Origin: Argopecten irradians
Taxonomy: Eukaryota > Mollusca > Bivalvia > Pectinida > Pectinidae
Length of the DNA: 64,000 bases
Assembly: GCF_041381155.1 (NCBI RefSeq)
Contig: NC_091142.1
Coordinates: forward strand, 27,417,963-27,481,962
Reading direction: 5' to 3'
Every line of letters starts with the position of its first letter. The first letter of the stretch is position 1. The translations under genes were made by a program, and so were the position numbers. Below, piece by piece: positions 1 to 64,000 of this stretch. The notes under the pieces were generated by a model. It was not told the DNA's origin and did not search any database. It worked only from the letters and a program-made list of their open reading frames with translations.

Positions 1-2090
1 CTGTTTAAATGTTCTGTTCATGATCTTCTAGGTCCATATTGGAAAAGTTTACTTTCAAGAGCACTCAAATCAACATTCTTCAGTCTTCATATGATGCTAA
101 TTGTATGTATATGTATACATACACTTGTATACAGGTCCAAGGGATGAACTTTCTGTATTCATGTCACTATGCATGCATGGTGCCTGAAAAAAAGAACCAA
201 CAATTTTTTATATCTGTTGAATGTGACAAAAATTGAAATGATCAATTTCAAATATATATAGGCCTAAATGAATAAATGTAGGTTCATTCTACAGGTTTTT
301 TTTTTTTATTTTAGAGAAAACATTTTATAAGTTGTGAATGTGTCACTGATGCATTTGATAGAATAAAATATTGTTTCAAAAAAGATACAAAAATCATTAT
401 CTATAGTTCCAACAAAAATTCAGAATAATTATAAATGATACATGGCTGCAGTACCAGAAATATATATACATGTATATATGTTTCTGGCAGTACATACACA
501 TGTACAAACACTATTTATTATTATGACCAGAAATAATACTGTATGTGTCCTCCAAATATATCTAAAGAACAAGCTAAAACCTACATGTACATATGTTATG
601 TGTATATCAGAACATATACAATACAAATTTTACCAATTAACCTACGATGTAAATCCTATATACAATGTATGTGTATAACACTACCAGAACATGTACAGAA
701 CAAAAATTTACAAATTAAAAAATCTATAAATATATACATCAGAACTGTATGAATTGACCGGTAGCATAATATTATAGATTAATTGAAACAAATCTTAGCT
801 TGATAATGCACAAGCGGTTACATTCTAACTGTACATGCATTACAACGGTGCATTTTATAAATATACAGGGCATTCATTACCCCTAAAGAGGCCCCACTAA
901 AGAACCGCTATTTACCCCAGGGTTACGTTTTACGCGATTGGGGAACAGGTATGAAACATGTGACCATATGTGACCACTCATTTATGAAAAAAATACTGCT
1001 AGGGACTATTTACATAATGATCAAAATACGAAGACTCACTCACTATCAGCTGAGCAGGGAGTACCGGGTAGTAGGCCTAGGTACGTACAGTAGCGGTCCG
1101 GAGCCGCGTGCTCGTTTGAACTGTTCTCTTCACTTTAACAAGTTGTATTAACACTGTCCATGCGTTGTAATGTTTACCGAGTCAGTTGTTGGGATTGTCG
1201 CTGCTCCATTGCCTTTCCTTTCGCATTTCAGGTGAGTCAGTTGGTTGTTTTGGCGGAAACATTTTGGTTCAAAACTACGGTAGCCATGTTTTGTTTACTA
1301 CGGAGAGTGGTGGGTGTTGCGCATGCTTTAAGGTTCATCATACCACCTGAGCAGGACCATAATATGATGTGCGATATTTATTAAAATTTCATTTATATAG
1401 ACTGGAGATCTAAAAGATGAATGTTATCATGGTTGAATAATGCCTGAAGCTATACATTGACACTGTTTATATACTGGAAAGGATTTGGCATATTTAGTAC
1501 TTTTGCCATAAAAATGTAAACATAGAAAAATCCAGAGCAGTATACTAAAAAACTTAGAACACTAAATATGAATTTCAACATTTTAAAAACTAAATATTTT
1601 CCCATGCCTCTTAAATTTCTTTAGGTCATACAAGGGCAAAATTTCAAATTATGATACAGTGAAAGTAGAAATTCCACAATCATTTCAAGGGATGTTCATA
1701 TCATGGAGGCAGCCATGATGGAAACCACATGTGTCTGATAAAATCTGTCTTTACCATAAAACCGTTACATTTACATTCATGCCATCACTGGTTAAGGAAT
1801 TTCCAACCTCTATCTATTACACAGACCACAATATGTTGAGATCGGCTCAATATCTGTCTAGAATTTCTTCCAACAAAATCTACATCACGAGAAGTTTGTT
1901 GACGTCTTCCTAGGGACTATGCTAATATTACTACGCCAAAACATAAAAAACAAAGTTATGCGTCATTTCAATATCAATATGTTAAAGCTTAATTCGAAAC
2001 ATTTATTACATATATGTATAACATTCTGCTGATGTCTAGTGTAAAATAATCATTATATTAATAACGTGTTACTGTTGGACTATTTTCTGT
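1..2090. other. Intergenic, AT-rich; no gene recognised
   Basis: Only short open frames without family resemblance occur here. Short palindromes of the ACATGTA/TACATGTA kind recur (about 100-130, 460-490, 585-595), as is common in bivalve DNA. Positions 1040-1260 are richer in CpG than their surroundings and contain GTGAGT-like and polypyrimidine-AG strings, so an untranslated exon or promoter is possible but cannot be shown. Confidence 0.5.
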
Positions 2091-2099
2091 GCAGCTGTT

Positions 2100-2210
2100 T
2101 CCGGTTCCTGTAAGTACAGACGGTAATTTGGCCAAAGTGAAAGTAACCAGAGTGGAAGCTCGAAAAATAGCAAATTAAACACGGATTTTGGTTATTTACA
2201 CAGCGGCAAG
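2100..2210 (+). promoter_or_regulatory. Possible 5' untranslated exon of the transposase-nuclease gene
   Basis: The stretch ends in CGGCAAG followed by a near-consensus splice donor, GTAAGTAAAT, at 2211. It lies about 340 bases before the ATG at 2547 and has no useful open frame, so it would be a non-coding leader exon. A matching acceptor before 2547 is less clear; the AG at 2483-2484 is one candidate. The transcription start is not visible. This is inference from splice-site shape and position only. Confidence 0.3.
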
Positions 2211-2546
2211 GTAAGTAAATTGGTTGAATTACTTAATAATGACACATATGTCAACGATCTTTATTATGATTTGTTGTCATCTTCCCTTGTAAATGTCACC
2301 AGCCAGCTTGTCAGCCATGATTCGACACACGATTTGCAAACTTCACAATAACATTATTTTTTTAGTTTTAGCTTTTTTTCATGTATGTATTTGATATAAA
2401 CAACCAATAAAGCCAACTTCATCATTTTTTATTTTTGTTGTTATTGTCCTAAATGACGTGTTTACTATATGAAAAATACGACAGCCCACAAGTGGATATA
2501 ATTCCTCGGAAGATGATACATAGGTAGAAAACGAAATTAATTCACC

Positions 2547-5500
2547 ATGGGAACTTTCAAAAAGCGTCAGAAAAGGTTTGGTTTGGCTTCTGGTTGGTAC
2601 CGAAATTACCGTAGAAACAAACACCATGTCGGAGGTAGAAGGAAATATAAATATTCAAGCACTCTAGTTGATAGTAAAGACACTAATCGCATAGTACTAA
2701 AGATATCACGAAACACAATAAAAAACAAGACTGGCAAATTGTTTCGTGTGGCCTCAACTAGAGCCACCAGTTGTGATGCATATGGTGTGAAATATACAAC
2801 AACCAATAGGCAGGTGCCAAAAGTATCAAACAAGACCGGTGATGGATATCGTTTCATAAACTTGTCATGTCTACAAAATAAAATTAGCGAAATAACTGTA
2901 CATTCGGCTTTGTGTGATGGTGCACGACAAATTGCATTGAAAGGGGGCAGTCCAATCACAATAGCATCGGAATGCCAGACGTATGGATTAGCGTCAATTC
3001 TTCATGTTCAGTGTAATGGATGTAAGAAATCATTCCAATTTGAAACTAGTTCTACATTGGAAAGCAGCGAAAAAAGTAGGCATTTTGACATTAATGTAAG
3101 AGCAGTGTGGGGTTCACTTGTCACTGGAAATGGCCTGGCTCATTTAAACGAGTTCTTAGCATGCACTGACTCACCAGGCATGAGCGAAAAAACCTTTTCC
3201 AACATTGAGAAGAATATAAATACATGGTGGGCAGATGTGTTGGAGGCCGAGTTGAGAGAGGCTATTGAGGCAGAAAAGGAAATTGCTATTTCTAAAGGCA
3301 AATATCATGAAGGTAAGGTTAAAACTATTTCCAACTGATATATTAAAATCTTGCTTATCACGAACCAATGAAAAAGCTGAAGCCAGTAATTCCTACATAA
3401 TTTATGTATGATGAAAAAAGTGTTAAGGCCCTCCATTAGGTTTAATGAAATGGCCGTTATCACAGTTTATTGTGGAGAATTAGATCTATCGAGTAATTAT
3501 TATAAACATTATTCTGTTATATATCTGGTCGAATTATGAACAAAATTGAAGTCTATCATATTGATTTTGCTTATGATAAAATAGATTAAATTGTTAAAGA
3601 ACAAAAGCTGTAAATCTTATCTTATTCATATGTGATATATTAAACTGAATGCAGGTTGTTGTATTGATTGTAGGAGTTCCTGCCATCGATGTTATTTGTG
3701 ATGGTGGCTGGAGCAAGCGCTCTCATAAACACACTTATGATGCGCTAGGGGGAGCAGCTGTCATTATTGGAGCAGCAACAAAAAAAGTGTTACACCTTGG
3801 CATCCGCAATAAACACTGCTACATTTGTAGTACAAGTACCTCTGATACTCCAAAGCCCCACAAGTGTTTTAAAAACTGGACAAAGTCAAGCCAGGCCATG
3901 GAGTCAGACATTATTCTCGAAGGTTTTCACAACGCTGACAAGCTTGGAATCAGATATATGAACATTATTGGTGATGGAGATTCATCCGTATTTGCCCGTA
4001 TACGCGAAGATGGACCAATATGGGGGAAGCAAGTACAGAAATTGGAATGCTCCAATCATGTGTGCAAGTGCATACGTTCACACTTGGAAGCTCTTGTTGA
4101 TGAAAATCCATCCTACAAAGGGAAAGGCAATTTATGTAAAAGCACACGTATTCGGCTAACCAGTTCCATCAGATGCGCGATACGTATGAGATCATCATTA
4201 CCAGATAAAAAGAAGGCCGCCAAATTACTTGAGCATGATATCAGAAACAGTATTTTCCACATATATGGTCAGCATGACAAATGTAGTTTAGATTTTTGCA
4301 AAGCAAGGTCACTGTCCTCCAACAGATCTGTGAACTCATTAAATGAGGAGAATACTACAGATGATGTTTTTGAACTACAGTCCAAACTTTGGTCTGAAGG
4401 GTCTTCCATTGAGGCACAGGAAGAATCACGTTTGGATACAGCCGTAACTATGGATCCCTTAAGGTCTGATATTCTGAAAGACGTGGCATTAATTCTTGAT
4501 AGGGTGGCATGCAAGAGTGCAAGATTAATTGGAAATAACACAACAAATTTGGCTGAGTGCTGGATGCACATTCGAACAAAATTTGATGGAGGGAAGAACA
4601 CCAATTTGTGCAACAGGGGATCTTGGCATACTAGGTGCTATGCGGGCGCTTTAAGATATAATTTAGGCCCCACTTGGTCTCCTCAGGTCTGGGAAAAATG
4701 TACAAAAACAAGAGCTGGTGACAACTTTACAGCCCTATATGAGAAAAGACACCGATGTCTTCAAAGCAGCGTCAAGTCAAAGTTAAAGCCAGAAGCAAGA
4801 GCAAGGCGTTGGAAAAGGAAGTTGGCCATGTCCAAGACATCATCATCCAAAAAGGCCAGGCTAGAGTATGGTAAGGAGGCTACAGATGTTACCGAAGACA
4901 TATCTCCCTCTGACCTAAAGAAAGTAGGACAGGAGTTCATGGACTCTCACTTTAACCAGTCAACTGGAGACATTGAGAAAATCGAAATTGAATCACGTAA
5001 TCAGTCATCATCTGCCGTCTGGAAATCAGAGAGAAAAATAAGATTGACCTCCTCTAACTTCGCCTCAGTATTTAAGCGTAACCCATCACTTAAAGTGGCA
5101 CCTATTGTAAGAACTCTACTCTACTCCTCTTTTAAAGGTACAGCTGCTATGAGGAAAGGTATAGCATTAGAACGTGTTACCAGACAAGAATACACCAATA
5201 TAGCTGCAAAGGAGGGGAAGAATGTCAGAGTTGTTGAGAGCGGACTAGTCATTGATCCACAACATCAGTTTCTGGCATGTAGTCCAGATGGAAAAGTAGT
5301 AGAGAATCATCACATTACAGGGCTTATTGAAATAAAAAATTTACTCCATGGTAAACCAATTAATCTAACCCAGGCAGCAAAATTAAAATGCATGAAAAAC
5401 TTTTGTTTGGAACAACAGAATGGAAAACTTTCTTTGAAAAGAACACACGATTATTATTACCAGTGTCAGGGACTACTTAATGTTACTCAACTTCCTTGGA

Positions 5501-6329
5501 TTGACTTTATAGTTCGAACAGAAAAACCATATGAAATCCATGTAGAAAGAATATACAAAGACTCGGACCTGTGGAATTTCCGAATGTTACCAAAACTCTC
5601 TAGCTTTTATAAGAAAGCCATGTTACCAGAAATTGCTGTACCAAGGAATGGGAAAAGTCCTGGAATTAGGGAACCAGGTTTATGGGTATGCATTGTGTTA
5701 AGATAATTTTTTATTATTGAAGGCTATTAGAATCAAAGCTGGCTGGTGATTAAACTTCTGTTATTCATATTTTGAAATTGTTTCAGATGTAGATGCTGTA
5801 CTTGTACTATTGTTTAAACAAAATATTTGTTTTGTATGTGTTCTGTAGTTTGAAGATATTGGAGTGGGGAGAAGGAACGAAGACAAAACAGCACAGCCCA
5901 AGCCAGCCTCACATAGACCCAACAGGTACTGTTATCACATGAATAATGTGAATGAGACATATTACAATTTACTGTAATGCTATGATAATCAAACTTAGGA
6001 TTTATTATACTTAGAACAAACCAGTCATGATATTGCACTTTAGTTTGATGTTTGATATTGATGAGTCATTAAAACTGAATATATTCTATGCATGTTTACT
6101 TTATTTCAGGAAGAAAAGACCTAGTTTTGTGGGAAGAACCATATCACATCAATGGATCACTGAGGGAAACAATCCAGAGTGGTACAATGGCACTGTTCTC
6201 TCACTTGTGAGAGGTGTAGCTGGAACCAGAAGTGCAGTGTATGAAATAGAGTATGAGGACGGCATTTATGAAATTGACCATTTGGTAGAAGACTTTGAGA
6301 TGGCACACGTCAAATTTATTGATGTTTAG
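2547..6329 (+). CDS. Mutator-like transposase fused to YqaJ-type nuclease and Spin/Ssty domain
   Basis: Four exons: 2547-3312, 3674-5685, 5849-5925 and 6110-6329. Each junction has GT-AG ends, the phases fit, and the total of 3075 nt gives 1024 residues plus stop. The ATG sits in CACCATGG, a good Kozak context. Residues about 130-590 look like the Mutator-type transposase domain found in many invertebrate proteins: a CxxC pair (CNGC), then DGGW with Asp 265, GDGD with Asp 356, and NLAECW with Glu 550 as the likely third acidic residue. Residues about 705-890 resemble the YqaJ/lambda-exonuclease nuclease fold: Glu 755, SPDG with Asp 794, EIK with Glu 808 and Lys 810, and a YYYQCQ stretch near 849-854. 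The last 70 residues (SHQWITEG, WYNGTVL, YEIEYEDG, EIDHLVED) resemble one Spin/Ssty repeat, a Tudor-like fold that reads histone methylation in spindlin. No terminal inverted repeats were found, so an active transposon and a domesticated gene are both possible. The domain calls come from memory of the families. Confidence 0.85.
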
Positions 6330-6574
6330 AGGTAATTCATAGCGGTACCATCAGAAGTTTTATTGATACCCCTCCTACAAAAAAAAAAGTGGAAAACGAA
6401 AAAGATATCAAAGTATAATAAAAATCAAAGGATTCGATATCAAATATCTTTGAATGGGAGTTAAATGGTAAGTAATCACCATATAAATAAAATCACCAGT
6501 AAAATGTAGCATTGAGTTTGAAATAAGCATTGTTTTATGGCAGAAATAGTATTCAGTATTTATTTATTTTTCAG

Positions 6575-7026
6575 ATTTCCGTGAAGTGTTGGATTGAGGG
6601 CATTGCTATATGTGGTGGAAATTGAGTCAGTTAGTGTAAAAGTAGATTTCGGCATTGATAAGTTGTTGAGAATACAGATTTCTGCATTGATAACATGGTG
6701 AGTTAAAAATATATTTCAGAGTTTGGTTGTGTCACAGTTCTTCAAATCTACTTTAGGGAATGACGTACGTGTATGCATAGACAAAAATATGCGCTAGCTA
6801 GGATAAACTTAATGAACAGAAATATTGAAAATGTGACAATAACTAAGTATTATATTAAAAAGATTATTCAATATCGGTTATCAGTGAATTTAAAATGTTC
6901 TTTTTTTTTATGCAGTTTCATGGTGCCAATACTTTACAAAGAAGGATAAAGACAAAGATACCTTTTTCTGGATAACTCAAAGTGGTAGAGTGTAAACATC
7001 CCAGAAACAAGCTCAGAGAATTCTTG
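6575..7026 (+). other. Two possible non-coding 3' exons after the transposase gene
   Basis: After the stop at 6329, two segments have good splice signals: TTTATTTTTCAG before 6575 with donor ATG|GTGAGT after 6697, and TTTTTATGCAG before 6916 with donor TTG|GTGAGT after 7026. Neither carries a long frame. They could be spliced 3' UTR exons of the upstream gene or exons of an unseen downstream gene. AATAAA-like strings also occur near 6417 and 6485, so a transcript may simply end before them. Confidence 0.25.
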
Positions 7027-8640
7027 GTGAGTGAAAAATTTATTGAAATTGATGGTTGTATCTTGAGCCATTTTCTCCTGTTGCTATTACAGCTGTAACA
7101 CTTTTATCACTTATGGGCCTCCATACTTCACTGAAAAGTAGTACCAATATGGCTGTATTCCACATTTTTCCATAATATACCCTGGTATATTTTAAACATT
7201 TATCGACTTCAAGCATAATCTTTATGTAAAAATAAACCTGGTGTGTAATTTTAGGAACAATAAGGTATCCTAACTTATTCTTATTTTGTTTTTGAAGGGG
7301 CAAGGGAAATAACTCTAAGTTTTGAAAAAAATGATATTAAAATCTTATTTAAAATTGTTATAGTGGTAATTTGCTAGCTTCTGTAAACTTTTAACATAAA
7401 TAATCAGTTAGTCTAGTGAATAGTGAACAGAATGATATACAATAATTCGCAGTTTTAAGTAAGTAAAATGAAAGAAAACTACACCCTAAAATGATAGCTC
7501 AAAGTGGTATGATGAACCTTAAGATTGACCTGCACTCATAGCCGGTCGGGAGGACTTTTAGGATTCCCATAGATATTATTATTTTCTTCGCATGTACAGC
7601 GATTTTGACGGAAAGTTTTATTTTTCTAATTCATAAGAAATTATACCGGATATATTAATACCATTTTTACCGATTTTACAGTCACTTGCCCGACTATTCG
7701 CTTTAATAGAAAAGCAATTGGTAAAATTTCTTTATGGATATTCACTGGTTTAAAGTTCAACTTTTGATAATCCGATATATTCTATCGTTTAATTGTCTTA
7801 TATGTCCGCCGTTCTTTCGTGTTTTTATATATGACTTGAGCTATGTTTATTGGCTATATATAGAATATATATAGCATGAACGACAGAAGTATTCAGTTAA
7901 GGTCACCGTTATAACAAGTTAGAATTTTAGGGCTATTAGGTTTGAGTCAGAGTCATCGTGACTATTCTTAGAAATAAAAAAAAAAAAACACACACATTGT
8001 CAGCATTTCACAGTTTAGTTTTTTTCATAGATCGTAACAAAACCTGTGAATATACATGAACTATCAAAATATCTTTGACAAGTTTGGAGTTTCATGGTTA
8101 CCAGATCAAGGTCAAAGGCACTTTTGCTGTTTCTTGGAAACATTTGTCAACATTCCCTTTTTTCTTCATTGCATCAAATATAATGTAAAAACATGTTTTA
8201 TTCAGCAGCACAGCAGGTTGCATGTACATGTTTGTTATAAGTTCGATAGTACTGTTTTACTCAAGTGACGCTCAAGATACATGTACCTCTTGGTTTCCTC
8301 AATGTACGCCATGTAAAGATACATTTTAGCAATTGTTATTACATTTGTATTGACCAAAAGAGTAAAATCAGTCTAAAGAATATCTGAGCGCCTTTACGTC
8401 TTGTCTACCCTTAAAGAATATGTCGAGCAAACTCGATTTTTAAAGGACCTCGGATTTCCTTGAAGTAACAACAACTATATCTTCCTACGCTTTTCCGGCT
8501 AATAATAAATTCTATAATTTTCTATAAGCGAATGCTATTTATTGCAGAATATTATTTTAAAATTCAACATTAAACCAAACAATATAGATTATTTTGTGGA
8601 CGTGAGAGTTTAACTTCTAAGTGAACAATAAATTTTGCGT
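7027..8640. other. Intergenic, nothing recognised
   Basis: AT-rich DNA without a recognisable frame. A TATATAGAATATATATAG palindromic run lies near 7856-7875 and an A-run near 7975-7990. No RNA gene, known repeat family or conserved peptide was seen. Confidence 0.5.
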
Positions 8641-8644
8641 TCAA

Positions 8645-8985
8645 CGTCCGCCATTTCAAAACAATAGCCGTAACGTAATCTACAAATGGGGCGCAATGAA
8701 CTAAACAATAGCCGTGACGTTTTCTACAAGTGGGCCGCAATGTACTTAACAACAGTCGTGACGTTTTCTACAAGTAGGCCGCAATGTACTTCACAATAGC
8801 TGTGACGTAATCTACAAGTGGGACATAATGTACTAAACAATAGTCGTGACGTAATTTATAAGTTGGCCACAATGCACTAAACAATAGCCGTGAAATAATT
8901 TACTAGTCGATCGCAGTGTACTAAAATAGCCGTGACGTAATCTACAAGTGGGTTTGCAAGGTACTAAACAGTCGTCGTACATACA
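8645..8985. repeat. Minisatellite of about 48 bp with CRE-like TGACGTAA in most units
   Basis: About seven degenerate units of the form ACAATAGCCGTGACGTAATC, then TACAAGTGGGCCGCAATGTA, then CTAAAC, run head to tail. Unit-to-unit differences are scattered substitutions. Most copies contain TGACGT(A/T), the half of a cAMP-response element, but this may be accidental. No open frame crosses the array. Confidence 0.8.
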
Positions 8986-31258: not shown

Positions 31259-31651
31259 CGGAAGCCGTCTGGCGCCACACCAAAAAATATATTTATTGTG
31301 TTCCCTCACAATAATATTGTGAGGCCACACAATACTATTGTGAGGGAACACAATCTTATTGTGAGGCCACACAATAATTATTGTGAGGGAACACAATATT
31401 ATTGTGAGGGAACACAATATTATTGTGAGGGAACCTCACAATTATATTGTGTTCCCTCACAATAACTATTGTGTTCCCTCACAATAACTATTGTGTGGCC
31501 TCACAATAACATTGTGTTGGCCTCACAATAAATATTGTGTGGCCTCACAATAACATTGTGTTCCCTCACAATAAATATTGTGTGGCCTCACAATAACATT
31601 GTGAGGGAACACAATAAATATATATTTTGATGTGGCGCCAGACGGCTTCCG
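31259..31651. mobile_element. TA-flanked palindromic-satellite element A (393 bp)
   Basis: The ends are inverted repeats beginning CGGAAGCCGTCTGGCGCCAC, with TA on both sides (31257-31258 and 31652-31653). Inside the ends lie A/T-rich ATATTTATTGTG strings, then a tandem satellite made of a palindromic word, CACAATAnnATTGTG, separated by six-base spacers. Only two spacers and their complements are used: TTCCCT and TGGCCT (or AGGGAA and AGGCCA). Spacer orientation flips near 31430, where AGGGAACCTCAC joins the two polarities, and again near the right end. There is no coding capacity. TA flanks fit the Tc1/mariner group, but no transposase was seen. Confidence 0.8.
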
Positions 31652-32080: not shown

Positions 32081-32809
32081 CGGAAGCCGTCTGGCGCCAC
32101 ATCAAAATATATATTTATTGTGTTCCCTCACAATGTTATTGTGAGGCCACACAATAATTATTGTGAGGGAACACAATGTTATTGTGAGGCCACACAATGA
32201 TTATTGTGAGGGAACACAATCTTATTGTGAGGCCACACAATAATTATTGTGAGGGAACACAATATAATTGTGAGGTTCCCTAACAATAATATTGTGTTCC
32301 CTCACAGTAATCATTGTGTGGCCTCACAATAATATTGTGTGGCCTCACAATAAGATTGTGTTCCCTCACAATAAGATTGTGTTCCCTCACAATAAGATTG
32401 TGTTCCCTCACAATAACATTGTGTGGCCTCACAATCATATTGTGTTCCCTCACAATAAGATTGTGTTCCCTCACAATAACATTGTGTTCCCTCACAATAA
32501 TATTGTGTGGCCTCACACAATAACATTGTGTTCCCTCACAATAATATTGTGTTCCCTCACAATCATATTGTGTTCCCTCACAATAAGATTGTGTTCCCTT
32601 ACAATCATATTGTGTTCCCTCACAATAATATTGTGTTCCCTCACAATAATATTGTGTTGCCTCACAATAAGATTGTGTTTCCTCACAATAAGATTGTGTT
32701 CCCTCACAATAACATTGTGTGGCCTCACAATAAGATTGTGTTCCCTCACAATGTTATTGTGAGGGAACACAATAAATATATTTTTTGGTGTGGCGCCAGA
32801 CGGCTTCCG
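32081..32809. mobile_element. TA-flanked palindromic-satellite element B (729 bp)
   Basis: Same family as element A: ends CGGAAGCCGTCTGGCGCCAC and complement, TA on both sides (32079-32080 and 32810-32811), and an interior satellite of CACAATnnnATTGTG words with TTCCCT/TGGCCT spacers. About 33 words are present. The left quarter has the AGGGAA/AGGCCA polarity, often alternating; polarity switches at AGGTTCCCT near 32272, and the right part has mainly TTCCCT with scattered TGGCCT. The last word returns to AGGGAA. Long translations across it, made of a repeating IVFPHNK-like motif, come from the repeat. On its right it abuts a LINE reverse transcriptase frame that it cuts. Confidence 0.85.
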
Positions 32810-59831: not shown

Positions 59832-60737
59832 CTAAGTAATGGTCATGTTCAACTGCGCTAGGGCAACAACCGAAGGATCGATGCGAATATAACGTATGTA
59901 ACAATCAGAAGACCACCTCCCAAGAGTTTGAATAACATGGTCTTCAACACCAGCTGCTGCAGCGGAAGTGGCGGCTCCAATCCGAAAGGAATGACCATTG
60001 TAATCACGGTTATCTATCCCTACACGTGTTAAAGTATCTTTCAAGTACGAGATAAAAGTACCACGCAAAAGAGGTTTGGAGGAAAGTGCATTGTCCACAA
60101 ACAATGGAGAATCGGGATTGGCCCCTTGCAAAAGGCGCAATTGTAAAAAATTCTGCATCGTGGAGACTGGAGCCAATGAACTATTCTCAAAAATCTTGAT
60201 AATCACACCATTACCGAAGGGGTCTGTTTTCGAGGAGCGTAAACACAGGTGAAAACAAGATTTGTCAGGTACCACATTTATATCACGTAAACGAATGAAG
60301 TTGTTATCTTGGAGTTTCGAACATGTAAACTCACCACATCGTAGAAAACCGTAGAAGGCAGTCTTGAACACACATATGAGCATACGGTCGATAAAAGGCT
60401 CAAACACACCACGTGTACTAGATAGAACAGAGCACAATTTTGTAAGCACATCACAAGTAATAGGAAAACGTTTAAAAGTATCACCTACACGATTTTTCTT
60501 AATTGCACGTAAAATGTATGATAGTCTTGTAGTGTAAGTTAAGGGATCTCCGAAATTGTAACGAATGTAATGAAAGCGCACACCTGCCAGGTACAGCTTA
60601 ATAGTGTCAAATTTCAAGCTTAAGGCTGTATGGCAATAGGTGACAAAACGAATTAGTAGATCTTCTGACACTGGTGGTAGCGAGTTCACTGGAAAGGCGA
60701 TACCTTGTAATAGGATGAAGGTTTGAAAGCAATTCAA
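59832..60737 (-). CDS. Retroelement tyrosine recombinase
   Basis: The 301-residue frame has the marks of a tyrosine recombinase: FYGFLRCGEF (first catalytic Arg), GHSFRIGAAT (His-x-x-Arg) and WSSDCYIRYI with the likely nucleophilic Tyr. In DIRS-type elements this enzyme inserts a circular DNA copy in place of an integrase. It lies 3' of the reverse transcriptase frame with a gap of about 70 bases. The first Met may not be the true start, since such proteins can be made from overlapping or downstream reading. It belongs to the element at 58.1-63.9 kb. Confidence 0.85.
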   Translation of the reverse strand: MNCFQTFILLQGIAFPVNSLPPVSEDLLIRFVTYCHTALSLKFDTIKLYLAGVRFHYIRYNFGDPLTYTTRLSYILRAIKKNRVGDTFKRFPITCDVLTKLCSVLSSTRGVFEPFIDRMLICVFKTAFYGFLRCGEFTCSKLQDNNFIRLRDINVVPDKSCFHLCLRSSKTDPFGNGVIIKIFENSSLAPVSTMQNFLQLRLLQGANPDSPLFVDNALSSKPLLRGTFISYLKDTLTRVGIDNRDYNGHSFRIGAATSAAAAGVEDHVIQTLGRWSSDCYIRYIRIDPSVVALAQLNMTIT

Positions 60738-60805
60738 ACCTGATCTGTAAGTGGCAAGAGTTCTTTCACTTAGAGCCGAGTTCCATAACTTGTCTACCTC
60801 AGAGG

Positions 60806-62497
60806 TTAGATCATCATTAAAGCTGACATTGGAAGACAGGGAATTGGGAAAGCATCGGCCTTGGGTGCCAGCCGCCTGAAACGCTGCATCTGGAACCGAG
60901 AAATTGCATCTGCAACATTATTGAATTTCCCGGGTATGTGTACAGCATGAATGACGTAATTGTTAATGGCAGAATGGTATGTTAGTTTTCGCATAAATCC
61001 CATGATGCTTTTAACCTTAGAACGTCCCTTCGAGAGGATTTCGACAGTGGCTAAATTGTCACAGTGAAACAAAATACGTTTCCTAGACCACTGATGTCCC
61101 CATAAAACACATGCCATTACAATTGGATAAAGTTCAAAGAGGGCCATAGACGGTTCTGTGTTTTTTAAACGTTGAGGGAAAAAACCTTGAAACCACTGAT
61201 TCTGGTAAATACCTCCAAAAGAGTCCAGAGTTGCATCAGTGAACAAATGTAAGTCAGCTGAGTTGGTTATGTGGCTATCTAAAAAGAACGATACACCATT
61301 CCACTGTCTCAAAAAGTCTGACCACATAGCGAGATCGGCGCGACACTCGTCGGTGATTTTAACATGATAATGTAATTTCTCAACTGTTGTAGAAAGTTTA
61401 ATCAAACGGGAAACAAATGAGCGACCCGGTCTGATACACCGACAAGCGAAATTCATGTGACCGAGTAGACTAAGAAGTTCACGTTTAGTACAAGATTTTC
61501 TCCACTTAAAAGAGTCTACAATAGTTGAAATCCGCGCTATCTTCTCCAAAGGTAATCGGAGTTCACTGGTAACGGAATCCAAAATGACACCTAGGTATTC
61601 TAAGGAAGTACAGGGACCCACAGTCTTGTGAGCTCCTAGAGGAATACATAATTTAGAGAAAACTGACAAGAGTCTCTCCATAGTAACAGTAGCATTCACA
61701 GCAGCTGATTCAATGACTAGAAAATCATCCAACAGATGTAAAATGTTTGGTATGTTGTAGTTATTCCTTGCAATCCAACAGACTGCTCTAGATAGGTTAT
61801 CGAATAACTTGGGGCTTGATCGGCTACCAAACACTAATCTAGTAAAGAAATAAAACTTATTGTTCCACTGAATACCATGATAAGGCCACAGATCTGGTTT
61901 GATAGGTAATAACTTGAAAGCGTCCGTGATATCGGTCTTCATTAACCATGCATTAATTCCCAGTGATTTAATAAGCTGAATAGCATCATCGATAGTGACA
62001 TAATGTAAAGAGCAAGTAGTCTTGTCAATAAGGCTGTTCAGACTAGGATTGTCAGGATCATCGTGCGGAGCTGATAGGTCGACAATAAGCCTTTTCTTTC
62101 TGGAATATTTATGCTCAGCCAGTCCGATAGGATTAATGCGGTAATTACCGGTAAATGGTATAGAGTCAAATGGGCCTAAAAGGTATCCCTTTTCTACTTC
62201 TTTACTCACTAAATCTGTAACACACTCGGGGTCATCTAAGGCTGATCTTAAATTTTTGCAGATAACGGACAGATTCGGAAGTGTTTGAAAACCGGTATCA
62301 AACCCATGACGGAGCCCATCTATTAAAAATTTAACAAACGACTTATCCGGATGGTTACGAAGTTCATACGTCAAAGCTGGTATATCAATAGGTGTAGTCA
62401 CTATTTCTTTCGGGTCGGAGGCCTGGCTACCTCTAAAGGGCACGCAAACTTGGGGTGACCAGCCTTGCAGTTCAAACACACATGATGGAAGTAACAA
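60806..62497 (-). CDS. Retroelement reverse transcriptase and RNase H
   Basis: The 563-residue frame reads, in order, RLIVDLSAPHDDPDNPSLNS, then WLMKTDITDAFKLLPI (first catalytic Asp), VFGSRSSPKLFDNL, LLDDFLVI (the catalytic DD pair), EYLGVILDS, and an RNase H part with LFTDATLDSFGG, SMALFELYPIV, FHCDNLATVEIL and NVADAISRF. This is the DIRS-type pattern. It begins inside the end of the Gag-like frame (overlap 62401-62497, different frame), an arrangement also known from other DIRS-type elements. Confidence 0.9.
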   Translation of the reverse strand: MLLPSCVFELQGWSPQVCVPFRGSQASDPKEIVTTPIDIPALTYELRNHPDKSFVKFLIDGLRHGFDTGFQTLPNLSVICKNLRSALDDPECVTDLVSKEVEKGYLLGPFDSIPFTGNYRINPIGLAEHKYSRKKRLIVDLSAPHDDPDNPSLNSLIDKTTCSLHYVTIDDAIQLIKSLGINAWLMKTDITDAFKLLPIKPDLWPYHGIQWNNKFYFFTRLVFGSRSSPKLFDNLSRAVCWIARNNYNIPNILHLLDDFLVIESAAVNATVTMERLLSVFSKLCIPLGAHKTVGPCTSLEYLGVILDSVTSELRLPLEKIARISTIVDSFKWRKSCTKRELLSLLGHMNFACRCIRPGRSFVSRLIKLSTTVEKLHYHVKITDECRADLAMWSDFLRQWNGVSFFLDSHITNSADLHLFTDATLDSFGGIYQNQWFQGFFPQRLKNTEPSMALFELYPIVMACVLWGHQWSRKRILFHCDNLATVEILSKGRSKVKSIMGFMRKLTYHSAINNYVIHAVHIPGKFNNVADAISRFQMQRFRRLAPKADAFPIPCLPMSALMMI

Positions 62498-63759
62498 ACA
62501 GGCCTGCTACAACCGTCCGAACCATTGAAATTATTGCAGATTTCACGACCCTCATGGTATTCCTTCTTCCTGCCTTTGGAATCTAAAGTAGAAGAGTTCT
62601 TGTTGGAAAAGAATCTTGGCGTACTAACAGATTTCTGGAATTGTCCTAATCTTGGGTCAGTAGTTGTAGGGCAGAAACCAGTTTGATGCAGGGTACTACC
62701 ACAAACTTCACAAGAAACTGGTCTTTGATTAGAGAAGATGTTGCAAAAGAGAGTGTTATCCCGAATGGACCAGTCTATAGGGGTGTTATTAAAACGTAGA
62801 TGGGCAGCAGCACGTAGGGAAAATTGTTTGTGGTATTCGTAGAAACCAAAAGCATAACGTGTACCCATATCGACGATATCGCGTTCATAGAGATCTAGCT
62901 CGATACGCCTTGAAGGATGTGCGGTACACATCACATGCTTGTAGACCCCGAAAGCCAAAATAAATTCACTTAGTGTGAGGGTTCTATGCAGGCGGACGTC
63001 TGGTTTCTCTGACGTGTGGGCACTGGGATCACTCTGGCCGCAGAAGTAAGGTATTAGTAGAGCTGCTAAATTAACATCTTTACCAGAGATAATTTGTTGA
63101 CGCAAAGACGGAGATACAGTCTCGACTAAAGGCATAGAATCTGCCGCGAATCCAAATCGGGTTCTTTTCAAAAAATTCTCACCTTGGGAATGACCGGGTT
63201 GAGAGTGGTTAAAACTTCTGTAAGCTGTTTCTAAGGTGTATTCCGTCGGTGGCGAAGGAAACGTGAGCTCTGGAGGAGTTCTAACATTGTCTGTTGGTGT
63301 TTGCAACTCGCTGCCGGCCGAAGATGCTGGGGCATGACTGGAGTTTGTAGCCGGTGTACGCTCATTCACTACCGTAGGCCTGGAGTTAAGGTCACTATTG
63401 CTGCTAATGACTCTCCTTTCTAGTCTAATATAGCTGTCCTGCAGCTTTGTGACGCTGTCAGCTAAGCTGTTCACTATATCCGCTAAAGTTCTTGTGTGAG
63501 TGTTGTCGGAGTCCGAATTTTGCTGTCTGTTTACATTTACGACACTGCTTCGGTCGCCATCTTGCCGCGGTGCATTTTGGGATCGCGCACTCGATGCCCT
63601 CGCGTCCTTCAACTTCCTTACAAGCACCATTCGCTTCTCGTTACTACGAAACGGCACATTTAGTCTGTTTAATTCTTCTCGTAACCTTGAAAGCGTCCAA
63701 TTTTCCAATAAATCTGGATCGTATGGTGTAGGGCGATTGTTTCTGCGTTTTGGTCCCAT
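62401..63759 (-). CDS. Retroelement Gag-like protein with SAP-like N-terminus
   Basis: The 452-residue frame starts near the 5' end of the element. Residues about 13-52 (NWTLSRLREELNRLNVPFRS and following) resemble a SAP DNA-binding helix pair. A Ser/Thr/Pro-rich low-complexity part follows. The C-terminal third has Cys/His clusters, CEVCGSTLHQTGFC and CNNFNGSDGCSRPVCYFHHV then CLNCKAGHPKFAC, the nucleic-acid-binding part usual in these Gag-like proteins. A capsid fold cannot be judged by eye. Confidence 0.8.
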   Translation of the reverse strand: MGPKRRNNRPTPYDPDLLENWTLSRLREELNRLNVPFRSNEKRMVLVRKLKDARASSARSQNAPRQDGDRSSVVNVNRQQNSDSDNTHTRTLADIVNSLADSVTKLQDSYIRLERRVISSNSDLNSRPTVVNERTPATNSSHAPASSAGSELQTPTDNVRTPPELTFPSPPTEYTLETAYRSFNHSQPGHSQGENFLKRTRFGFAADSMPLVETVSPSLRQQIISGKDVNLAALLIPYFCGQSDPSAHTSEKPDVRLHRTLTLSEFILAFGVYKHVMCTAHPSRRIELDLYERDIVDMGTRYAFGFYEYHKQFSLRAAAHLRFNNTPIDWSIRDNTLFCNIFSNQRPVSCEVCGSTLHQTGFCPTTTDPRLGQFQKSVSTPRFFSNKNSSTLDSKGRKKEYHEGREICNNFNGSDGCSRPVCYFHHVCLNCKAGHPKFACPLEVARPPTRKK

Positions 63760-64000
63760 ATTAAAAATCCAGACGAAACGGTTGAATGAGTTCGTTTACA
63801 AACAAAGGCACATGGCTATGATCACACTACGACGCACAGTAGACACACAGGTAGCGCCAAATACGAGTCTTTAAAAGCAGGTGTGTAATGTCAGTCTTAC
63901 GTTTGAACGCTGTGTTCAATTATTGTAACAAATGATCGTTAGACAAATGTCATAAAGTTAAATCCATCACGTGAAACACGACGACGCTAATCCCGCGTGA

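Follow-up and report, generated by a model that had tools for sequence, protein, structure and literature searches.

Kolobok DNA transposons, as the main text of Kojima & Bao (2022, PMC9587614) describes them, are recognized by a TTAA duplication, by 5'-RR..YY-3' ends and by a C/DxxH motif, of a type that is common to hAT, P, MuDR, Kolobok and Dada. According to the same main text, several Kolobok elements carry accessory enzymes: a lambda-exonuclease-like PD-(D/E)XK nuclease downstream of the transposase in KolobokE, a DEDDh exonuclease in KolobokD, a RecQ helicase in KolobokH and a His-Me homing endonuclease in KolobokP. Here we describe an element of Argopecten irradians, found in contig NC_091142.1 of the assembly GCF_041381155.1 (positions 27,417,963 to 27,481,962 of the forward strand; this whole stretch of 64,000 nucleotides is called the window). 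It shares with KolobokE, as presented there, the DDE transposase followed by a PD-(D/E)XK nuclease, the TTAA, the 5'-RR..YY-3' ends and the CxxH motif, and differs from it by an added C-terminal exon that encodes a spindlin-like domain. Taking all parts together, we consider it probable that this is a young KolobokE transposon equipped with an end-trimming nuclease and with a spindlin-type domain that docks on histones; the splicing of its RNA, the nuclease activity, the binding of methyl-lysine and the effect on target choice are what we infer within this reading.

Two other known systems are close to the C-terminal part. The spindlins (SPIN1-4, Spin/Ssty, PF02513) resemble it at the level of the repeat sequence and of the aromatic cage positions; they have three Tudor-like repeats and no enzyme, whereas the window protein has one domain, scoring below the Pfam cut-off, fused to a transposase and a nuclease. 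Chromodomain-bearing retrotransposons (chromoviruses) also join a histone reader to a mobile-element recombinase, but these are long terminal repeat elements with the chromodomain on the integrase, while the present DNA transposon carries a domain of spindlin type. The combination of transposase and nuclease in one protein is already known, since KolobokE has been published. A C-terminal spindlin-like domain in KolobokE is apparently undescribed as far as the literature was searched: the words "spindlin" and "Tudor" are absent from the main text of PMC9587614 ("chromo" appears once), its supplements lying outside that search, and the literature searched, whose scope did not extend to Repbase reports and supplements, gave no account of a KolobokE with a spindlin or Tudor domain. 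No paper on Kolobok together with YqaJ was found there either, and KolobokE was named in PMC9587614 alone.

The protein is predicted from four exons (Table 1) with GT..AG borders and agreeing phases, which give one open frame of 1024 residues. This gene model had been proposed from the letters of the window alone, in what we call the sequence-only reading; the seven residues singled out there (D265, D356, E550, E755, D794, E808 and K810) are all in place, and transposase, YqaJ-type nuclease and spindlin-like domain do stand in one intact frame, according to Pfam matches and to the spindlin profile relation described below. The four-exon frame is beyond chance, with its splicing predicted from sequence comparison, because donor and acceptor phase are kept in relatives, because one relative lacks intron 1 and because exons differ less than non-coding DNA. 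Relatives retain the donor W/GT behind the motif REPG[LIV]W, in the forms GTATGC, GTAAGA, GTGAGT, GTATGT and GTAAGT. Of 16 distinct sequences upstream of the C-terminal exon that were read by eye, 12 have an AG acceptor that agrees in phase; L046, L047, L049 and L050 do not. In the more distant relative L061, exons 1 and 2 are fused, with no gap where intron 1 sits in the window copy. Two close copies of the element exist elsewhere in the genome, on C10 (98.6% identical over 6.2 kb) and on C1 (about 94%). Between the window and C10 copies there are 13 differences in 3075 exon positions and 56 in 3105 non-coding ones (Fisher p 1.5e-7), and the ratio of non-synonymous to synonymous substitution rates (dN/dS) of the whole frame is 0.25 for this pair and 0.40 for window and C1.

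The relation of the C-terminal domain to spindlin was evaluated by profile comparison. A profile built from 12 transposon members only was aligned by hhalign to SPIN1 repeat 1 with P 1.6e-6 (probability 90%) and, more weakly, to repeat 2 with P 3e-4 (39%), values that none of 300 shuffles reached in either case. The same profile matched two loci of this genome that score above the Spin-Ssty cut-off, L058 and L059, with P 1.2e-7 and 5.7e-8 (none of 150 shuffles each). When these two, as bridging proteins, were added to the profile, an hmmsearch of the PDB listed 26 sequences, 17 of them spindlins at E 7.8e-19 to 6.4e-17, matches that are partly carried by the bridging proteins. On these grounds the domain very probably has a spindlin-related fold, and the spindlin-like character first suggested for it is firmer than could be known from one locus, as the domain is found again in related elements and is under selection.

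Whether such a domain reads a histone mark is less certain. According to PMC7864079, the cage of SPIN1 Tudor 1 consists of W62, W72, Y91 and Y98 together with F251. We located the four Tudor 1 positions in the window protein from the profile alignments, with residue numbers counted from the published SPIN1 cage residues, and all four are mostly aromatic in 22 distinct peptides (W967 in 22, Y or F977 in 21, Y1000 in 21 and Y or F1005 in 17). The second position, residue 977, is Tyr in 19 peptides, Phe in two and a stop in one, and the adjoining Trp 976 is present in all 22. We lean slightly towards a reader of methylated histones (or of methyl-arginine), as suggested by these aligned residues.

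Several observations weigh against this reading or against the spindlin relation on which it depends. The window domain stays below the threshold of Pfam Spin-Ssty (PF02513; 14.6 bits with a cut-off of 25, E 0.03), so that the C-terminal Spin/Ssty match foreseen in the sequence-only reading was obtained with hhalign on the SPIN1 repeats and not at the Pfam cut-off, where only the other two modules, Mutator-like transposase (PF20700) and YqaJ, were matched as foreseen. The G5 family outscores Spin-Ssty on the C-terminus (E 0.0011), likewise below threshold, and Spin-Ssty is matched by six of the 12 members at E up to 1, the best being 0.0014. With the bridges left out, the hmmsearch with the transposon-only profile found no spindlin. 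The single-sequence AlphaFold model of the domain is weak (four strands, mean predicted local distance difference test score, pLDDT, of 60), and structure searches with it gave no significant match; of the 20 best Foldseek rows, 15 were Tudor, chromo-barrel or SAWADEE domains, as judged by title or fold. Furthermore, exon 4 holds a single domain of about 73 residues and not the three tandem Tudor-like repeats of spindlin.

The explanation that competes best is that of a plain KolobokE whose spindlin-type fold binds DNA, RNA or the transposase itself, in assembly or autoregulation, and reads no mark. The single instead of triple domain, the variable fourth cage residue, the shift of the second by one residue and a weak profile match (E 0.55) to the C-terminal part of PcrA would agree with it; to our knowledge, the Tudor-like fold of PcrA is not a histone reader. 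The largely aromatic filling of all four cage positions speaks for mark reading instead, and we regard the non-reader as unlikely, though still to be taken seriously.

Another possibility would be that the C-terminal exon lies outside the transposase mRNA, as a separate gene of the host or of the element. The linkage depends on splice signals and position, and in the window the exon-4 frame does have an upstream Met, two points that also count against the fused protein. When the genome was searched with the 73 C-terminal residues, 58 matches (E up to 10) were obtained, which merge to 51 places. In at least 37 of these, a transposase-nuclease body precedes the domain on the same strand and within 8 kb; in none is a body at the wrong side or strand, and 14 have no body within 8 kb. 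Conversely, at least 36 of 47 bodies carry the domain. These body counts are lower bounds, from the best 66 of 453 body candidates. Eleven bodies are without a C-terminal match, and one of them, L062, holds a broken remnant of the exon. From the last stop up to the domain, 22 of 30 loci have no in-frame Met, so the domain there needs an upstream exon; counted by distinct stretches, such a Met is present in eight of 17, including the window. Together with the kept W/GT donor and acceptor phase, this placement makes a separate gene very improbable.

The domain evolves under purifying selection: its coding sequence gave a median dN/dS of 0.286, with values below 1 in all 70 usable pairs out of 253. 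The set comprised 23 distinct nucleotide copies from 30 loci, whose pairs are not independent; the 183 pairs left out were saturated or undefined (140), outside 0.05 < dS < 2 or ratio-less. Because of its placement behind the bodies, the kept splice sites and phase and these ratios, the domain has, at the level of sequence, the appearance of an integral and selected part of the transposon lineage, and not of a chance read-through. At L041-L043 (C1:48929686, 48935945 and 48942202), three C-terminal exons with identical peptide follow each other at a spacing of about 6.26 kb, which suggests that a related element is arrayed there in tandem.

Concerning the borders, the 6.2-kb element of the window is flanked by TTAA at both ends. 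The left end reads TTAA followed by GGTTCATCATACCAC in the window, C10 and C1 copies, with one base different in C1; the right end, GTGGTATGATGAACC followed by TTAA, and the GG...CC termini are common to the three. The inverted repeats thus end at 1332 and 7518 and are bounded by TTAA, not located around 1.9-7.1 kb with duplications of 8-11 bp as had been anticipated. Of these three copies, the window one alone has the whole frame open, since exon 2 is frameshifted once in C10 and there are several indels in C1. When the window flanks were joined at one TTAA and used as query, they matched through the junction at 98-99% identity in 40 of 40 places (the best 40 of 711 candidates), over query positions 1-300 (1-299 in one). 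Four of these empty copies were read, and each holds a single TTAA at the junction, so the insertion in the window duplicated the TTAA; the base to its left is T in the window and G in the four empty copies. For the C1 target the picture is less clean: in L067, a 77% relative of it, a clean TTAA is not present at the corresponding place, and the BLAST alignment of the window with the C1 copy continues 26 bases beyond the right TTAA. The right flanks are faintly alike, so that both targets may be repeats with a distant relationship to each other; the left flanks differ. L061 and L062 were read whole, and their best TTAA-flanked end pairs begin TTAAGGTTCC; the scan gave two candidates with one mismatch in 14 for L061 and one perfect pair among six listed for L062, and the pairs selected were those starting GGTTCC.

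The window element is apparently a young and intact transposon copy, and the recent activity that the sequence-only reading had proposed agrees with the near-identical empty sites, the open frame and the close copies. The same reading had also considered a host-domesticated enzyme for genome rearrangement or defence. The intact frame and the purifying selection between copies would fit that idea, but transposition by itself yields selection between copies, and complete inverted repeats, a TTAA duplication, 98-99% identical empty repeats elsewhere, three insertions in differing flanks and two whole relatives with TTAA-flanked ends are those of an ordinary young transposon; domestication is therefore scarcely credible. 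The sequences at window positions 1182-1331 and 7523-7672 belong to the high-copy repeat that hosts the element, and another copy of this repeat lies just outside the window at C9:27415565. In addition, some 50 kb from the C10 copy there is a decayed relative with 77% identity to the element, L015 (G000:C10:27923767-27925240).

With respect to family, the element is almost certainly a KolobokE transposon, as judged by its features: the 4-bp TTAA duplication, the GG..CC termini (5'-RR...YY-3'), the DDE triad with a CxxH between the second D and the E, and the lambda-exonuclease-like nuclease 3' of the transposase. The nuclease is matched by Pfam YqaJ at residues 449-605 of exon 2 and by Viral_alk_exo (E 1.5e-5). 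The alternative of a Mutator (MuDR) element, as first proposed, has only a minimal likelihood: PF20700, which matches exons 1 and 2, carries the name "Mutator-like transposase", but the duplication has 4 bp instead of the 8-11 bp that the proposal gave for Mutator, and the GG..CC ends and the nuclease are as in KolobokE. The name is a label inherited from Pfam and is misleading here.

For a KolobokE element built in this way, a mechanism can be proposed. The DDE transposase would excise the element and insert it at TTAA, and the nuclease behind it would probably trim or resect the DNA ends of the element or those of the donor gap. Judging from the families, the YqaJ nuclease could perhaps resect the donor break, after which repair would copy the element back. 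The Tudor-like domain of spindlin type would probably dock the complex on methylated histone tails, and this docking would bias where or when the element moves, with excision or insertion directed toward marked chromatin. That the spindlin-type reader is used for targeting is possible, although we would not expect it with confidence. More tentative still is the proposal that a lineage within KolobokE captured the reader as a fixed part of its transposase-nuclease and aims transposition at chromatin marked with H3K4me3 and perhaps K9me3. In mouse germ cells, according to PMC11499256, young LINE1 copies carry H3K4me3, H3K9me3 and SPIN1 before silencing, and the host spindlin 1 recognizes these young copies for silencing. 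A transposon with a spindlin-related reader could favour the same kind of active copies or promoters as those LINE1 marked by SPIN1.

If this were true, a cut-and-paste transposase with a spindlin-type reader would represent a second, independent route to chromatin-aimed transposition, beside that of the chromodomain retrotransposons, and one in which the aiming is coupled with a fused nuclease of the resection type. The reading of marks that the mouse host uses against LINE1 would here serve the transposon. The element also offers a TTAA transposase for the study of mark-guided integration, and it bears on the origin of animal spindlin-type domains, as L058 (G000:C5:9703742-9703873) and L059 (G000:C14:6799457-6799570) carry such a domain and are apparently not KolobokE. 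Each of these has a single Spin-Ssty domain above the Pfam cut-off (35.5 and 29.3 bits, respectively), and that of L059 matches Spindlin-1 in the PDB at E 1.3e-14. The frame upstream of L058 gave no Pfam match. A stretch YGLWQS/FGLWQS is common to both loci, which may belong to one expanded or mobile family.

Table 1. Positions in the window of the KolobokE-type element and of its parts
Feature	Positions	Strand	Basis
Left TTAA target-site duplication	1328..1331	.	Single TTAA at matching place in the 4 empty target-repeat copies read; TTAA bounds both ends of three copies
Whole KolobokE-type DNA transposon	1332..7518	+	Common to C10 and C1 copies; sequence outside TTAA differs
Left terminal inverted repeat GGTTCATCATACCAC	1332..1346	+	15 bp; imperfect match continues to about 1352
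Exon 1, N-terminal region and start of transposase domain	2547..3312	+	Open reading frame; donor AAG/GTAAGG; PF20700 1.2e-22
Exon 2, DDE core and YqaJ nuclease	3674..5685	+	PF20700 1e-48; YqaJ 5.6e-14
Catalytic Asp 265	3700..3702	+	Kept in L061 and L062
Catalytic Asp 356	3973..3975	+	Kept in L061 and L062
CxxH motif (CSNH, residues 381-384)	4048..4059	+	Between second D and E; kept in L061 and L062
Catalytic Glu 550	4555..4557	+	Kept in L061 and L062
YqaJ / lambda-exonuclease-like PD-(D/E)XK domain	5020..5490	+	Pfam; Glu 755, Asp 794, Glu 808 and Lys 810 kept in L061 and L062
Exon 3 (77 bases), basic linker	5849..5925	+	Splice sites and phase alone
Exon 4, C-terminal spindlin-like (Tudor-like) domain, residues 952-1024, and stop	6110..6329	+	Genome matches; spindlin relation; selection
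Trp 967, SPIN1 W62 by alignment	6153..6155	+	W in 22/22 distinct peptides
Trp 976 - Tyr 977	6180..6185	+	Tyr 977 is SPIN1 W72 by alignment, Trp 976 adjoins (one-residue gap choice)
Tyr 1000, SPIN1 Y91 by alignment	6252..6254	+	Y in 21/22, D in 1
Tyr 1005, SPIN1 Y98 by alignment	6267..6269	+	Y 11, F 6, H 5 of 22
Right terminal inverted repeat	7504..7518	-	Pairs with left repeat
Right TTAA target-site duplication	7519..7522	.	TTAA at both ends of copies; empty sites

Other features of the window were also observed. At 8659-8970, 1.1 kb to the right of the element, a 44-bp unit is present in seven tandem copies. A 21/42-bp unit (TATTGTGTGGCCTCACAATAA-like) is repeated in tandem at 32116-32775 and at 31293-31617; the first of these arrays has an open frame on each strand (162 and 157 residues), which is probably just an effect of the repeat. 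On the minus strand, at 59832-63795, three frames overlap: the first encodes a reverse transcriptase (PF00078, 1.8e-9), another a phage-integrase-like domain just below the cut-off (6.5e-6), and the remaining one gave no Pfam match. We take this arrangement to resemble a DIRS-type retroelement.

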